NCBI GenBank assembly: GCA_003347645.1
Contig: QDFX01000001.1
Coordinates: 248,001-312,000 of the forward strand
Direction of reading: 5' to 3'
DNA length: 64,000 nt
Origin: Rhizobiaceae bacterium CPCC 101076
GTDB taxonomy: Bacteria; Pseudomonadota; Alphaproteobacteria; Rhizobiales; Methylopilaceae
Shown here: in pieces, positions 36,384-42,787 of the stretch
Layout: every line of letters begins with the position of its first letter
How positions within the stretch are numbered: position 1 is the stretch's first letter
Notes under the pieces: generated by a model
Seen by the model: only the letters and a program-made list of their open reading frames with translations
Told to the model about the DNA's origin: nothing
Databases searched by the model: none
Program-made: the position numbers and the translations under genes

Positions 36384-36438
36384 ACTTGCCTCACCCCTGT
36401 AGCGCTACTAGGTTGCAACGATCTCCTCGGGAAGAGTG

Positions 36439-37854
36439 ATGAACCCGTCTTACGTCTCGACTCGCGGCGAAGCGCCCGAACTGGGCTTTCTGGATGTCCT
36501 TCTGGCCGGCCTCGCCCGCGATGGCGGACTCTATGTGCCGTCCGAATGGCCGCATCTCTCCGCTGAAACCATCGAAAGCTTTGCCGGCGCGCCCTATGCG
36601 GCAGTCGCCGAGGCCGTGATCTCGCCCTTCGTCGGCGATGCCTTCGCGCCGGCCGACCTTCGCTCGATGATCGACGAAGCCTATGCCAATTTCCGTCATC
36701 CGGCGGTGGCGCCGCTTGTCCAGACCGGCACGAACAGCTTCGTGCTCGAGCTCTTCCACGGCCCGACCCTGGCCTTCAAGGACGTGGCGATGCAGCTCTT
36801 GGCGCGGATGATGGACCGTGCGCTGATGCTGCGCGGTGAGCGGGCGACGATTGTCGGCGCCACTTCGGGCGATACCGGCGGCGCGGCCATCGAGGCGTTC
36901 CGCACCTGCGAGCGGGTCGATGTCATCATCCTGTTCCCGCACGGCCGCGTTTCGGACGTCCAGCGCCGCCAGATGACGACGGTCGATGCACCGAACGTTC
37001 ACGCCGTGGCGGTCGAAGGGAACTTCGACGACTGTCAGGCGCTCGTGAAGGCAATGTTCAACGACCACCGTTTCCGTGACGGCCAGAAGCTTGCGGCGGT
37101 CAATTCGATCAACTGGGCGCGCATCCTCGCCCAGGTGGTCTACTACTTCACCTCGGCGGTCGCGCTCGGCGCCCCGCATCGCCCTGTTTCGTTCGTCGTT
37201 CCGACAGGCAATTTCGGCGATGTCTTCGCCGGCTGGGTCGCCAAGCGAATGGGCCTGCCGATCGAGCGCCTGGTCGTCGCCACCAATTCGAACGACATCC
37301 TCGCCCGCACCATCGAGACAGGCCGCTGCGAGGTGAAGGGCGTCCATCCGACGACCTCGCCCAGCATGGACATCCAGGTCTCGTCGAACTTCGAACGTCT
37401 CGTCTTCGAGGCCGAGGGTCGCGATCCCGCTGCCGTGCGCCGCCACATGGCCTCGCTCGGCCAGGCCGGTGCTTTTACGCTAGGCAATACGCCGCTCGCC
37501 GCCATTCGTGGCGAGTTCGACGCCGGACGGGCGAACGAGACGGAGACGTCCGAGACGATGCGCCGTCTGCTGCGCGAGAGTGGTTATCTTTCCGATCCGC
37601 ACACGGCGGTCGCCTTATCGGTCTCGCAGCGTCTTGCCGGCGATCCGGAAGTGCCGCGCGTCGTTCTCGGCACCGCGCACCCGGCGAAGTTCCCCGACGC
37701 CGTGATTGCGGCGACGGGCGAGCATCCCGACCTGCCGGAGCATGTCGCCCACATCATGCAGGGCGCCGAGCGGATGACCGTGTTGCCCAACGATCTCGTC
37801 ACGATCCAGGCTTTCGTCGCCGAGAAATCGCGCGCCTCTCTGGAGGTCGTGTGA
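36439..37854 (+). CDS. thrC: Threonine synthase
   Basis: A 471-residue PLP enzyme that converts O-phosphohomoserine to threonine. The N-terminus (YVSTRGEAPELGFLDVLLAGLARDGGLYVP) is that of the long proteobacterial type; the PLP Lys lies in GPTLAFKDVAMQLLARMM (about residues 110-127) and the phosphate-binding loop in VGATSGDTGGAAIEAF (about 140-155). GTG 36436 is one codon upstream of the chosen ATG. The stop overlaps the GTG start of the following M16 gene. thrB lies about 8 kb away on the other strand. Confidence 0.96.
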   Translation: MNPSYVSTRGEAPELGFLDVLLAGLARDGGLYVPSEWPHLSAETIESFAGAPYAAVAEAVISPFVGDAFAPADLRSMIDEAYANFRHPAVAPLVQTGTNSFVLELFHGPTLAFKDVAMQLLARMMDRALMLRGERATIVGATSGDTGGAAIEAFRTCERVDVIILFPHGRVSDVQRRQMTTVDAPNVHAVAVEGNFDDCQALVKAMFNDHRFRDGQKLAAVNSINWARILAQVVYYFTSAVALGAPHRPVSFVVPTGNFGDVFAGWVAKRMGLPIERLVVATNSNDILARTIETGRCEVKGVHPTTSPSMDIQVSSNFERLVFEAEGRDPAAVRRHMASLGQAGAFTLGNTPLAAIRGEFDAGRANETETSETMRRLLRESGYLSDPHTAVALSVSQRLAGDPEVPRVVLGTAHPAKFPDAVIAATGEHPDLPEHVAHIMQGAERMTVLPNDLVTIQAFVAEKSRASLEVV

Positions 37855-39125
37855 GCGTCGAAGTCACCGTCCTCTCGAATGGACTGACCGTCGCCACCGA
37901 TACGATGACGGGCATCGGCACCGCCGCCGTCAGCGTCACCTTCGGCGCGGGCGCGCGTAGCGAGGCGGAGAGCGAGCACGGCCTTGCTCATCTCCTCGAA
38001 CACATGGCCTTCAAGGGCACGAAGCGGCGCACCGCGATCCAGATCGCCGAGGAGATCGAGGAGGTCGGCGGCGATCTCAACGCCGCGACCGGCGTCGAGC
38101 AGACTTCATACGACGCACGGGTGCTGAAGGCGGACATTCCGCTGGCGCTCGACATGCTGTCGGACATCCTGACCCAGCCGCTGTTTGCGGAAGACGAACT
38201 CGCTCGCGAGAAGGGCGTCATCCTTCAGGAGATCGGCGCGGTCGAGGACACGCCGGAAGACCTCGTCCACGACCTCGTCCAGACGGTGGCGTATGGTGGA
38301 CAGGCCCTCGGCCGTCCGATCCTCGGTACGCCGAAATCGGTGAAGGCGCTCGATCGGGCGGCGATCAGCGGATTTCTCGGCCGCCATTATCGGGCGCCGC
38401 GCGGTGTCGTCACCGCGGCCGGTGCCGTGAACCATGAGGAGATCGTCAAACTCGCCGGCGACCTTCTCGGTGATCTCGGAAGCGAGGCCGGCCCGCACGC
38501 CCCGCTCGCGCAGTGGACCGGCGGCGATATCCGCCAGAAGCGGGACGACGAGCAGGCTCATCTGGTTTTGGCCTTCCCGGGCAAGGCGATGGCCGACGAC
38601 GATGCATTCGCGCTCCAGATATTCGCCAACGTGCTCGGCGGCGGCATGTCCTCCCGCCTGTTCCAGGAGGTCCGTGAGAAGCGGGGCCTCGTCTATTCGA
38701 TCCAGGCCTTCCATTGGGCGTTCTCGGACACCGGCCTGTTCGGCATCTATGCCGGAACCGGCGAGGATGACCTCGATGAATTGATGCCGGTCACGCTCGA
38801 CGAACTTGCCGGAGCCGCGCAAAATACGACGGAGCGCGAGATCGCCCGTGCGAAGGCACAGATGCGGATGAGCCTCGAACTCGCCCGCGAGCAGCCGACC
38901 TCGCGGTCCGAGCGTCTGTCACGGCAGATCCTCGTTCTCGGCCGTCCCGTGCCGGGAGAAGAGATTCTCGCGCTGCTCGATGCCGTGACCGTCGAGGATG
39001 TTCGCCGCGTCGGACTGGAGACGATTTCGGCCCGGCCGGCGCTTGCAGCGGTCGGCCCGATCTCCAGGCTGATGCCGCCTGAGCGGATTTCCGAGCGCCT
39101 CGGCGCTCCAGCCTACGCTGCCTGA
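37851..39125 (+). CDS. M16 family metallopeptidase, processing-peptidase type
   Basis: A 424-residue M16B peptidase without a signal peptide. It has the complete zinc site HLLEH at residues 47-51 with the second Glu further on (EEIGAVEDTPEDLVHD region), and the R/Y segment GGGMSSRLFQEVREKRGLVYSI in its second half. It therefore resembles the mitochondrial processing peptidase beta subunit and can act alone, unlike the pair at 15-17.8 kb. It begins with GTG overlapping the thrC stop and is followed 2 bases later by a GNAT gene. Confidence 0.9.
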   Translation: MSVEVTVLSNGLTVATDTMTGIGTAAVSVTFGAGARSEAESEHGLAHLLEHMAFKGTKRRTAIQIAEEIEEVGGDLNAATGVEQTSYDARVLKADIPLALDMLSDILTQPLFAEDELAREKGVILQEIGAVEDTPEDLVHDLVQTVAYGGQALGRPILGTPKSVKALDRAAISGFLGRHYRAPRGVVTAAGAVNHEEIVKLAGDLLGDLGSEAGPHAPLAQWTGGDIRQKRDDEQAHLVLAFPGKAMADDDAFALQIFANVLGGGMSSRLFQEVREKRGLVYSIQAFHWAFSDTGLFGIYAGTGEDDLDELMPVTLDELAGAAQNTTEREIARAKAQMRMSLELAREQPTSRSERLSRQILVLGRPVPGEEILALLDAVTVEDVRRVGLETISARPALAAVGPISRLMPPERISERLGAPAYAA

Positions 39126-39127
39126 CC

Positions 39128-39712
39128 ATGGCCTTCCTCCGGGCACTCTCCGACGAACAGGAGCCGGTTCTGAGAGGCGAGGGGGTGACGTTGCGCCCGC
39201 CGGCCGGAGGTGATTTCGAGGAATGGTCGGATTTGCGCGGGCGGTCCCGTGCCTTCCTGAAACCTTGGGAGCCGATTTGGCCCGCCGACGACCTGACCCG
39301 TTCGGCCTTCCGCCGTCGCCTGCGCCGTTATGCCGACGAGCGTCGTTCCGACAGCGCGTATTGCTTCTTCGTCTTCGGCAGCGAATCCAGCCTTCTGCTC
39401 GGCGGGCTGACACTTTCCAACATCCGCCGCGGTGTCGCCCAGTCCTGTACTCTCGGTTACTGGATGGGCGAGCAGTTCGCCGGCAAGGGTCACATGACGG
39501 CTGCCGTGCGTGCCGTCGTTCCGTTTGTTTTCGACCGCCTGGCGCTTCGCCGCATCGAGGCCGCCTGCCTGCCGACGAATACCGCCTCGATCCGGCTTCT
39601 GGAGAAAGTCGGCTTCGTCCGCGAGGGTTATGCGCGCCAATATCTGTGTATTGATGGAATTTGGCAGGACCATCTTCTTTTTGCCCTTCTCAGGGACGAT
39701 GGGTTGCGCTGA
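39128..39712 (+). CDS. GNAT family N-acetyltransferase, RimJ/RimL type
   Basis: A 194-residue acetyltransferase. The acetyl-CoA-binding region is LGYWMGEQFAGKGHMTAAVRAVVPFVFDRLALRRIEAACLPTNTASIRLLEKVGFVREG (about residues 114-172), typical of enzymes that acetylate N-termini of ribosomal proteins such as S5 (RimJ). The N-terminal VTLRPPAGGDFEEWSDLRGRSRAFLKPWEP is also RimJ-like. The exact substrate is not certain. It is the last gene of the run that begins with ctaC or thrC. Confidence 0.87.
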   Translation: MAFLRALSDEQEPVLRGEGVTLRPPAGGDFEEWSDLRGRSRAFLKPWEPIWPADDLTRSAFRRRLRRYADERRSDSAYCFFVFGSESSLLLGGLTLSNIRRGVAQSCTLGYWMGEQFAGKGHMTAAVRAVVPFVFDRLALRRIEAACLPTNTASIRLLEKVGFVREGYARQYLCIDGIWQDHLLFALLRDDGLR

Positions 39713-39841
39713 TCTGGCGGGATGCGCCAGCTTGCCGAGCGTTCGGCCTGGGGCTACGGAAGTTACGTGGTGCGTTGTGCCGCGAAGGGGGTTCACGGTT
39801 TGCGAGTTCGTGCGGGCCGTGAATCAGGGGAGATTGGCGTT

Positions 39842-42787
39842 TTGAATCTCGTCCGGAGGGCCGTGTGCGCCCTCCTCATCCTGTTCGGCGTGTTTGCCGC
39901 CGGCGGCCCCGCCGCCGCGCTGGAGCCGATTGTCGTGCCACCCGATCGCGGCGCGATCGATCTGACGCGCGTCGTCGAACGGTTCACCAGCGAGGGCGAT
40001 CGCGTCCAGGTGACGACGGCGCCGGGTGCCGACGGCGTCGTGCGCCGTATCGAGGTGCGCGGCCACGCGGAGGGCCGGACCAATTGGGCGCTGTTCGCAC
40101 TGACCAACACCTCGGACGACCAGATCGACCGGGTGCTCGTCGCGCCGCATTACCGGCTCGTCGGCTCGGGCGTGATCTGGCCGGACCTCGGCTCGCGCCG
40201 CATCGTCGACGTCACCGCGAGCCAGGGTTTCCGTCCGGAGCGCGAGCCAAGCAGCGACGCCGACATCTTCCTGATCACGCTCGACCCCGGCGCGACCGTC
40301 ACCTTCGTGGCCGAGCTGTCGTCGCCGACCTTGCCTCAACTCCATCTGTGGGACCCGGATTCCTACAAGGACAGCGTCAACGACCTGACCCTCTACAAGG
40401 GCATTGTCATCGGTATTTCCGGCCTGATGGCGCTGATTCTGACCATCGTCTTCGTGGTCAAGGGTTCGACCATGTTCCCGGCCTCCGGCGCGCTGGCCTG
40501 GGCGGTGCTCTGCTGGCTGTCGATCGATTTCGGCTTCTGGCACAAGATCTTCAATCTCGGCGTCGGCGAGGACCACGTCTACCGTGCGGGCGCCGAGGCC
40601 ACGCTTGCGGCGACGCTCATCGTCTTCCTCGTCGCTTACCTCAATCTCAATCGCTGGCACGTCCGCTTCGCCCATATCGCGGGCGTCTGGCTGATCGGTC
40701 TATGCGCCCTCGTCGGCATCGCGCTGATCGACGCGCCGGTTGCGGCCGGCATCGCGCGTATCTCGCTCGTCCTCGTCGCCGTTCTCGGCTTCGGCGTCGT
40801 GGTCTGGCTGGCGCTGCACAATTTTGACCGCGCGGTCATGCTCATCCCGACCTGGTTCCTGCTGCTGGCCTGGGTGGCCGCGGCGGGCTTCACCGTATCT
40901 GGCGTGCTGCAGAACGACATGGTCGCGCCGGCCCTCGTCGGCGGCCTCGTCCTGATCGTGCTGCTGATAGGTTTCACCGTCATGCAGCATGCCTTCGCGG
41001 GCGCGGGTCTGGCCCATGGTCTCGGTTCCGATCTCGAACGCCGTGCTCTCGCGGTCACCGGCTCGGGCGATCTCGTCTGGGACTGGGACGTGTCGGCCGA
41101 CAAGATTCATGTCACCCCGGAATTCGAGCATCTGCTCGGCCTGAAGAAGGGCGACCTCCACGGTTCGGCAGCGACCTGGCTCGACGTGCTACACCCGGCC
41201 GACCGTGACCGGTTTCGCGCCGCGCTCGACATGATCGTCACCGAACGGCGCGGCAAGATCTCGGAGCAGTTCCGCTTCCGCGCGCAGGACGGCCATTACC
41301 ACTGGATGCTTCTGCGCGTCCGCCCGGTCATCGCCGCGCATGGCGAAGTCACCCGCTGCGTCGGAACCCTGATCGACATCACCGATTCCAAGGCTTCCGA
41401 GGAACGCCTGCTGCACAATGCGGTGCACGACAACCTCACCGGCCTGCCGAACCGCCGTCTCTTCCTTGATCGCGTCGAGAGCGCGCTGTCCTTTGCTGCA
41501 GCCGACGAGAGGGTTCGCCCGACGATCCTCATTATCAATCTCGACGGCTTCAAGAAGATCAACGAGAGCGTCGGTCTGACCGTTGGCGACACGCTGCTCC
41601 TGACACTCGTCCGCCGCCTCGGCCGTCATCTCCGCGCCCAGGACGTGCTGGCTCGTCTCGGTGGCGACCAGTTCGGCATCCTGCTGCTCTCCGAGCGGGA
41701 AGGGCCGCGCATTTCGGCTTTCGCCGATACCGTGCGTAAGACGATCTCATCGCCGATCAGCTTCTCCGGCCGCGATATCGTCATCACCGGATCGATCGGT
41801 CTGGCGATGTCCGAACCGAGGACACCGATCACTTGCGAGGACCTCGTCCGCAATGCCGAGGTCGCGATGTTCCACGCCAAGCGGCTCGGCGGCGATCATA
41901 TCGAGATCTTCAAGCCGACCATGCGGACGGCGAAGACCGACCGGCTTCTGGTCGAGGGCGAGCTTCGCCGCGCGCTGGAGCGCGAGGAGCTTCGCGTCCT
42001 CTATCAGCCGATCGTGCGCCTGGAAGACCGCCATATTGTCGGCTTCGAGGCGGTGCTGCGCTGGGATCACCCGCGCTACAGCCGCCGCCCCGCCGCCGAA
42101 TTCCTGGCGATCGCCGAGGAGACCGGGCTCATCGTCGATTTCAGCCTGTTCGCGCTGGACCGCGCGTCGAGGCAGCTGTCGCTCTGGCAGCGCAAGGTGC
42201 CGGTCGAGCCGCCGCTGTTCGTGACGGTAGGCCTGCCGGGCAAGCAGTTCGAGCGTCAGGATCTAATCCAGGACGTGAAGACCGTCCTCTCGCGCACTGT
42301 CCTCGCGCGCGGCTCGCTGAAGCTCGAACTGTCCGAGAACCTCGTCATCCAGAATCCCGAGCGCGCCTCCTATATGCTGGAGAAGCTGCGCGATCTCGGT
42401 GTCGGCCTCGCGCTCGACGATTTCGGCACCGGCCATGCGAGCCTGGCCTATCTCGAGCGTTTCGCCTTCGACGTCGTGAAGATGGACCGCAGCTTCCTGC
42501 GCCAGCAGAGCAAGATGCACCGCGTCGCGATCCTGCGCTCGATGATCCAGCTCGGCCGAGAACTCGGCCTCGACGTTATCGCAGAAGGTGCCGAGACGGA
42601 TTCCGATGCGGTCGAGCTCTACCACCTCGGCTGCCAGTTCGCTCAGGGCACGGCCTTTGGCGATCCGATGACGGCGGAAGCGGCAGAGAAGCTGCTCGGC
42701 ATCGTGCCCGAGGCGTCGTCGCCGATGTCGAGCGTCCGCCGCGCCATGATGAACGTGGCGCGCCCGCAGGCTTCGTCTTCGTCCTAG
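39842..42787 (+). CDS. Membrane PAS-GGDEF-EAL protein with degenerate active-site motifs
   Basis: Layout of the 981 residues: a signal peptide (NLVRRAVCALLILFGVFAAGGPAAAL), a periplasmic region of about 170 residues resembling a 7TMR-DISM sensor, seven or so hydrophobic segments (about residues 175-390), a PAS domain (about 400-525), a GGDEF domain (about 530-690) and an EAL domain (about 715-955). The GGDEF signature is GGDQF (607-611). In the EAL domain the first motif is EAVLRW and the usual Asn of the VNLS motif is Gly (TVGLPGKQF), whereas LDDFGTG, KMDRSF and EGAET are kept. The TTG start at 39842 is chosen because GGGGAG lies about 9 bases upstream and the signal peptide begins there; the frame stays open to an ATG at 39722. 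Confidence 0.92.
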   Translation: MNLVRRAVCALLILFGVFAAGGPAAALEPIVVPPDRGAIDLTRVVERFTSEGDRVQVTTAPGADGVVRRIEVRGHAEGRTNWALFALTNTSDDQIDRVLVAPHYRLVGSGVIWPDLGSRRIVDVTASQGFRPEREPSSDADIFLITLDPGATVTFVAELSSPTLPQLHLWDPDSYKDSVNDLTLYKGIVIGISGLMALILTIVFVVKGSTMFPASGALAWAVLCWLSIDFGFWHKIFNLGVGEDHVYRAGAEATLAATLIVFLVAYLNLNRWHVRFAHIAGVWLIGLCALVGIALIDAPVAAGIARISLVLVAVLGFGVVVWLALHNFDRAVMLIPTWFLLLAWVAAAGFTVSGVLQNDMVAPALVGGLVLIVLLIGFTVMQHAFAGAGLAHGLGSDLERRALAVTGSGDLVWDWDVSADKIHVTPEFEHLLGLKKGDLHGSAATWLDVLHPADRDRFRAALDMIVTERRGKISEQFRFRAQDGHYHWMLLRVRPVIAAHGEVTRCVGTLIDITDSKASEERLLHNAVHDNLTGLPNRRLFLDRVESALSFAAADERVRPTILIINLDGFKKINESVGLTVGDTLLLTLVRRLGRHLRAQDVLARLGGDQFGILLLSEREGPRISAFADTVRKTISSPISFSGRDIVITGSIGLAMSEPRTPITCEDLVRNAEVAMFHAKRLGGDHIEIFKPTMRTAKTDRLLVEGELRRALEREELRVLYQPIVRLEDRHIVGFEAVLRWDHPRYSRRPAAEFLAIAEETGLIVDFSLFALDRASRQLSLWQRKVPVEPPLFVTVGLPGKQFERQDLIQDVKTVLSRTVLARGSLKLELSENLVIQNPERASYMLEKLRDLGVGLALDDFGTGHASLAYLERFAFDVVKMDRSFLRQQSKMHRVAILRSMIQLGRELGLDVIAEGAETDSDAVELYHLGCQFAQGTAFGDPMTAEAAEKLLGIVPEASSPMSSVRRAMMNVARPQASSSS

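Follow-up and report, generated by a model that had tools for sequence, protein, structure and literature searches.

A putative RgsP orthologue with a family-wide degenerate GGDEF domain and a probably inactive EAL domain in Rhizobiaceae bacterium CPCC 101076

The open reading frame at positions 39842–42787 (+ strand) of a 64,000-nucleotide stretch of DNA from Rhizobiaceae bacterium CPCC 101076 (contig QDFX01000001.1, positions 248,001 to 312,000; the whole stretch is hereafter the window) appears to encode the orthologue of RgsP, a polar-growth protein known in Sinorhizobium as SMc00074 and in Brucella as BpdA/PdeA. With a probability of roughly 0.82, we read its product as this known receptor or scaffold, in which the GGDEF domain is degenerate throughout the family, the EAL domain is probably inactive in the present species, and the growth function is kept. 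A first-pass annotation of the same DNA had described a membrane GGDEF-EAL protein with GGDQF in place of GGDEF and Gly in place of the Asn of the VNLS motif, and the frame, the motifs, and the codons all bear this description out. Its suggestion of a scaffold rather than an enzyme agrees both with orthology to RgsP and with published mutants that keep the growth function without catalytic sites (PMC6107284, PMC10787603; statements from cited papers are taken here from the parts of their text that were covered), and a scaffold role is already in print for the RgsP family. What may be new is that the EAL site has decayed repeatedly within the order, a pattern of which no report was found in the parts of the RgsP literature that were covered, the supplementary S3 table of PMC6107284 with its coloured motif variations lying outside that coverage. 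The features of the gene and its product are as follows.

39842..42787, + strand: rgsP orthologue, 981 amino acids, TTG start, an open frame whose stop ends at 42787
39842..39922, + strand: presumed signal peptide or hydrophobic N terminus, residues 1–27, read from the sequence
39923..40354, + strand: periplasmic strand-rich 7TMR-DISMED2 domain, residues about 28–171 (AlphaFold2 model; PF07696)
40355..40999, + strand: seven transmembrane helices, 7TMR-DISM_7TM, residues about 172–386 (AlphaFold2 model; PF07695)
41105..41368, + strand: PAS domain, residues 422–509 (PF08447, PAS_3, 67.1 bits)
41420..41893, + strand: GGDEF domain, residues 527–684 (PF00990, 115.7 bits)
41660..41674, + strand: GGDQF motif, residues 607–611, with the Gln codon CAG at 41669
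41960..42667, + strand: EAL domain, residues 707–942 (PF00563, 194.8 bits)
42047..42055, + strand: EAV in place of EAL, residues 736–738, with the metal-binding Glu kept
42230..42232, + strand: Gly797 (GGC) at the M1 metal-ligand Asn position of the VNLS motif

The two catalytic sites were compared across 179 distinct, near-full-length orthologues, which remained from 190 loci after removal of seven duplicates and four partial or N-terminal-less sequences (L054, L101, L102, and L103); the order-wide members were taken among the matches listed of 184 genomes, and the most divergent orthologues are under-sampled. The fourth residue of the GGDxF motif is Gln in 137 of these sequences, Glu in eight, and some other residue in 34. 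Because of these counts, the GGDQF that stands in the window protein instead of the GG(D/E)EF signature of an active diguanylate cyclase is, on the alignment, a family-wide state and not a strain error. Elsewhere in the same genome, nine other EAL proteins have a GGDEF-type motif upstream that was found by pattern, and all nine read GGDEF, including the otherwise degenerate L013.

At position 797, Asn is present in 168 of the 179 orthologues and Gly in the window protein only. The orthologue alignment that had been proposed as a check on the first-pass annotation thus upheld the conservation of GGDQF but not that of the EAL change. Among the M1 ligands of an active EAL phosphodiesterase (Glu, Asn, Glu/Asp, and Asp), it is the Asn that Gly797 replaces; the corresponding residue binds the M1 metal in PA3825 (Asn98; PMC5301497) and is the M1 ligand N233 in RocR (PMC7911125). 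Since an M1 metal ligand is lost, the EAL domain of the window protein is probably inactive or crippled. It does keep Glu832, Asp859, Asp860, Lys880, Glu915, Glu918, and Gln935, as well as most of the pocket and Arg740 in the EALLRW stretch, so that the earlier remark on the preservation of the other EAL motifs holds for the residues checked; it had missed, however, that the triad itself reads EAV.

The genus comprises four species, of which G002 carries Glu to Gln and Asn to Thr, G003 carries Glu to Gln, and G001 has all nine checked EAL residues intact, which means that an M1 ligand is also lost in two of the three sister species. The two lesions of the window protein differ: GGDQF is family-wide, whereas the Asn to Gly change occurs in this species alone, in a genus where EAL residues are being lost. 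Both sites are indeed altered, as had been noted, but they are not degenerate in the same sense, and RgsP of S. meliloti, which also carries GGDQF, is still an active phosphodiesterase. The fear that such residues might be strain-specific errors does not apply to the GGDEF motif, and a sequencing error at the unique Gly797 was ruled out because going from AAC or AAT to GGC takes no fewer than two base substitutions and because EAL ligands are lost in sister species too. The genome contains 14 EAL domains, and the Asn is kept in 12 of them, missing only in the window protein and L013. As a side observation, strongly degenerate EAL motifs occur in two more proteins outside the window, L013 (G000:C1:327481-328170) and L014 (G000:C1:235717-236418).

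Across the orthologues, all nine checked EAL residues are canonical in 144 of 179 sequences, at least one is changed in 35, and at least two are changed in 23; lone changes at Glu918 or Gln935 were not counted as proof of inactivity. Four sequences of one bacterial family (L165, L167, L170, and L171, family f24) have Glu918 alone of the nine changed, to Ser or Ala. On a FastTree tree built without the EAL columns, on which branch lengths were then fitted per domain, 16 changes are needed to explain the sequences with at least one loss and nine to explain those with at least two. Loss of an M1 ligand, seen in 16 of the 179 sequences, requires ten tree changes, whereas 16 tips labelled at random require a mean of 15.56 and never fewer than 13. 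Because of this difference, the EAL losses are clustered in clades and yet repeated.

The losses are accompanied by faster change in the EAL domain. With end branches excluded where the N-terminal length did not exceed 0.02, the median log2 ratio of EAL to N-terminal end-branch length was 0.95 in 19 sequences with at least two losses versus -0.18 in 101 intact sequences (p = 3.5e-7), and was again 0.95 for sequences with any loss (n = 27). The stem of the window's genus measures 0.244 for the EAL domain versus 0.118 for the N-terminal half. Consensus match in intact sequences and in those with at least two losses is 0.633 and 0.636 for the periplasmic region, 0.626 and 0.639 for the transmembrane region, and 0.638 and 0.643 for PAS, versus 0.660 and 0.609 for GGDEF and 0.689 and 0.502 for EAL. 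The first three regions are therefore as conserved in the decayed sequences as elsewhere, which agrees with the published mutants in which growth can dispense with the phosphodiesterase site. In the window protein the corresponding values are 0.706, 0.707, 0.675, 0.598, and 0.623. The ratio of nonsynonymous to synonymous substitution rates (dN/dS) within the window's genus is 0.164 for EAL, 0.097 for the transmembrane region, and 0.072 for PAS, versus 0.222, 0.276, and 0.281 in a related genus with an intact EAL domain. Because of this contrast between the two genera, the EAL domain in the window's genus is relaxed but not released, and purifying selection persists; since it does, the fold of the domain is probably maintained because stability, dimerisation, or regulation depends on it. 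A pseudogene was ruled out, as the frame has no internal stop and dN/dS is well below 1 in every domain.

Several points weigh against our reading. Parsimony cannot separate loss from regain; the EAL to N-terminal ratio of the end branch leading to the window protein is only 1.19; and the window protein, with one of nine EAL residues changed, falls outside the group of 23 sequences on which the domain contrast is based. The assignment to RgsP is built on architecture, GGDQF, order-wide distribution, and the published description, and not on a direct alignment with the S. meliloti protein. In addition, every catalytic residue checked other than the Asn is kept, G001 retains all nine, and the Asn to Gly change alone may leave residual phosphodiesterase activity. 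These last points lead to a different explanation, in which the EAL domain would still be a working phosphodiesterase and the loss at Gly797 would be compensated in the M1 site by water or by a neighbouring side chain. The low dN/dS of the EAL domain in the genus and the activity of S. meliloti RgsP (PMC6107284) speak for it as well, but it has to contend with the role of the Asn as an M1 ligand in PA3825 and RocR, with the retention of that residue in the great majority of orthologues, and with the loss of an M1 ligand in two of the three sister species. We regard a working enzyme as unlikely, although by no means negligible.

The reading of the protein as a growth receptor or scaffold draws mainly on what has been published for S. 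meliloti. RgsP of that species has a 7TMR-DISMED2/7TM/PAS/GGDEF/EAL layout with GGDQF, is essential, is found both at the septum and at the growing pole, and has the M23 protein RgsM as a binding partner (PMC6107284). It is an active phosphodiesterase with no diguanylate cyclase activity, and its growth function survives the replacement of EAL by AAL or of GGDQF by GAAAF, or deletion of the EAL domain (PMC6107284). The window protein shares this layout and motif, the order-wide orthologues, and polar-growth partners in the genome, but differs from this proven phosphodiesterase of cyclic di-GMP (c-di-GMP) in its Gly at the M1 ligand and its EAV triad. In Brucella, the homologue BpdA/PdeA (PMC10212136, PMC10787603) needs no catalysis to shape the polar insertion of peptidoglycan, and a catalytic substitution leaves wild-type morphology (PMC10787603). 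It is reported to be an active phosphodiesterase in a heterologous screen, whereas the window protein is predicted to be inactive, the two being compared by description only. RgsP is a known factor of unipolar growth that is independent of MreB, and the reason for its c-di-GMP domains is described as unknown (PMC10212136).

The first-pass annotation had also suggested a c-di-GMP effector. This suggestion finds no support: S. meliloti RgsP is functional in a strain without detectable c-di-GMP (DeltaXVI), and its PAS-GGDEF fragment does not bind c-di-GMP (PMC6107284). A related possibility is a receptor of the LapD/FimX kind, in which the inactive EAL domain would bind c-di-GMP and relay this through the membrane to the growth machinery.

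LapD and FimX bind c-di-GMP as receptors and, like the window protein, possess a degenerate GGDEF-EAL tandem; the presence of two degenerate domains in one membrane protein and the retention of Arg740 and most of the pocket are in keeping with such a role. LapD, however, relays signals through a HAMP domain between the membrane and GGDEF, and no HAMP was found in a Pfam scan of the window protein at E<=0.001, a PAS domain being present instead. LapD structures are also less similar, 3pjw and 6pwk standing at ranks 26 and 35 in the fold search, and an EAL consensus match as low as that of the 23 sequences with at least two losses would not be expected for a receptor pocket under maintenance. 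Together with the dispensability in S. meliloti of c-di-GMP, of the EAL domain, and of an intact EAL motif (PMC6107284), these differences make a c-di-GMP receptor very improbable.

It is also conceivable that the GGDEF domain acts as a GTP sensor that tunes RgsP, with no GTP cyclisation and with the pocket kept. Asp568 and Asp583 are invariant (179/179), Asn574 is kept in 166 of 179 sequences, and 155 of 179 orthologues, among them 15 of the 23 with at least two EAL losses, retain all five pocket residues; the nearest solved folds of the GGDEF-EAL half include PdeA and the GTP-bound hybrid domain of PA0575. Pocket loss nevertheless tends to accompany EAL loss (8/23 versus 16/156), as if the pocket served the phosphodiesterase. 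A link between individual pocket residues and EAL loss was considered (Fisher p = 0.0022 for Asn574 and 0.014 for Gly608) and is not claimed, since it loses significance when independent tree pairs are compared. Replacement of GGDQF by GAAAF in S. meliloti, moreover, affects neither complementation nor c-di-GMP content (PMC6107284), and we consider a GTP sensor improbable. A broader and still more speculative proposal joins this idea to the repeated losses: RgsP would repeatedly become a pseudoenzyme (about ten M1-ligand losses) while its receptor half stays untouched and the GTP pocket of its mostly inactive GGDEF half is largely kept, and in those lineages the cytoplasmic half would then control polar wall growth as a gate that senses only GTP and no longer depends on c-di-GMP. 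We offer it as a quite doubtful conjecture.

Returning to the reading that we prefer, RgsP would be an inner-membrane receptor or scaffold of the zonal cell-wall growth machinery. The DISMED2 domain and the seven helices, with PAS, would place it at the growing pole and the septum and link it to periplasmic RgsM, as shown in S. meliloti and as orthology and the genome partners suggest here. The GGDEF domain would be unable to make c-di-GMP, as in S. meliloti, and the EAL domain would have lost most or all of its activity with the M1 ligand; in this genus selection on that activity would have slackened, with no loss of the growth function that the N-terminal half carries. Orthologues in nature whose EAL sites are broken, both here and in other lineages, suggest that the enzyme is often given up in evolution and the receptor retained, and paired lineages with and without the phosphodiesterase residues offer a direct route to the role of a polar phosphodiesterase.

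The domain assignments in the N-terminal half are consistent across the family. The 7TMR-DISM_7TM profile scores 28.2 bits on the whole protein and 30.9 bits, above the 29-bit cut-off, on residues 28–395 alone, and PF07695 is matched in 13 of 13 aligned members. The 7TMR-DISMED2 profile (PF07696) scores 18.3 bits on residues 28–395 alone, under its 22-bit cut-off, and is matched at E<=0.05 in 12 of the 13, the window protein included. An AlphaFold2 model of these residues (13 sequences, mean predicted local distance difference test score 80.5) has a strand-rich domain with seven long helices after it. A Foldseek search of this model against the PDB returned no solved DISMED2 domain among the best 50 matches listed; the matches were weak seven-helix look-alikes (Wntless, cannabinoid, and other G protein-coupled receptors, with a TM-score to the query of at most 0.4) and were set aside as having no bearing on identity. 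The GGDEF-EAL half resembles the tandems of Caulobacter PdeA, RmcA PA0575, and MorA in fold and sequence; these are presumably active phosphodiesterases with intact M1 ligands and with N-terminal halves unlike that of the window protein.

An orthologue is present in 60 of 61 genomes of a set of relatives at E<=1e-80, one genome (G039) matching only after residue 304, and in 184 of 199 genomes of an order-wide draw (Rhizobiales/Hyphomicrobiales) at E<=1e-130. Fifteen genomes of this draw gave no match; seven of them come from one family of 1.3–1.5 Mb genomes and four from family f23 (families f4 and f23 are flagged); the family of small genomes may do without RgsP-based polar growth. Three conserved neighbours lie upstream in the window.

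36436..37854, + strand: threonine synthase, thrC
37851..39125, + strand: M16 peptidase
39128..39712, + strand: GNAT acetyltransferase

All 11 named loci tested have these three genes upstream of rgsP, and in eight of them algH, a DsbD_N gene, and a peroxiredoxin-like gene lie downstream.

The genome also contains likely partners in polar growth. One of its four M23 proteins is an RgsM-like candidate, with a transmembrane segment, an HxxxD motif 472 residues on, and an end 617 residues after the start of that segment, its first residues falling in a run of N; RgsM of S. meliloti has its transmembrane segment at 32–57 and M23 at 508–606 of 646 residues (PMC6107284). A ClpB-like gene, named from its sequence, lies near the RgsM-like gene. 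A published link between SMc02433 and clpB beside rgsM was looked for and not seen among the papers listed, and synteny with S. meliloti at this locus is not taken as evidence. A 1911-residue frame (G000:C12:257090-260578, L233-L235) with ten apolipoprotein-like matches, none of which reaches the curated cut-off, is by its layout a candidate for the growth-pole ring protein GPR/RgsE, which has 2,089 residues and up to ten apolipoprotein-like domains (PMC7327166). Both proteins, assigned by layout and not by alignment to the S. meliloti proteins, would fit unipolar growth. No MreB was recognised in the same genome: of three profile matches, one examined is DnaK and another resembles Hsp70, both identified by their sequences, and the third, at 27.5 bits in a 534-residue frame, was not examined.

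Finally, the TTG start codon at 39842–39844, from which the frame runs intact through to 42787, is preceded by a suitable Shine-Dalgarno-like stretch, as the first-pass annotation had recognised.

39826..39832, + strand: Shine-Dalgarno-like AGGGGAG, nine bases 5' of the TTG, read from the sequence

The pair is found at the same position in 17 of 18 genomes of the organism's own bacterial family (f1) and in 40 of 82 orthologues having enough upstream sequence, and 15 of these 40 have no ATG or GTG within the tested range. Because of this conservation and these 15 orthologues, the predicted start at 39842 appears sound. A TTG start of this kind is conserved in several families (17/18, 6/7, 5/5, and 3/3 in the best-sampled; L015-L041, L110-L122), seemingly an uncommon trait in an essential gene.

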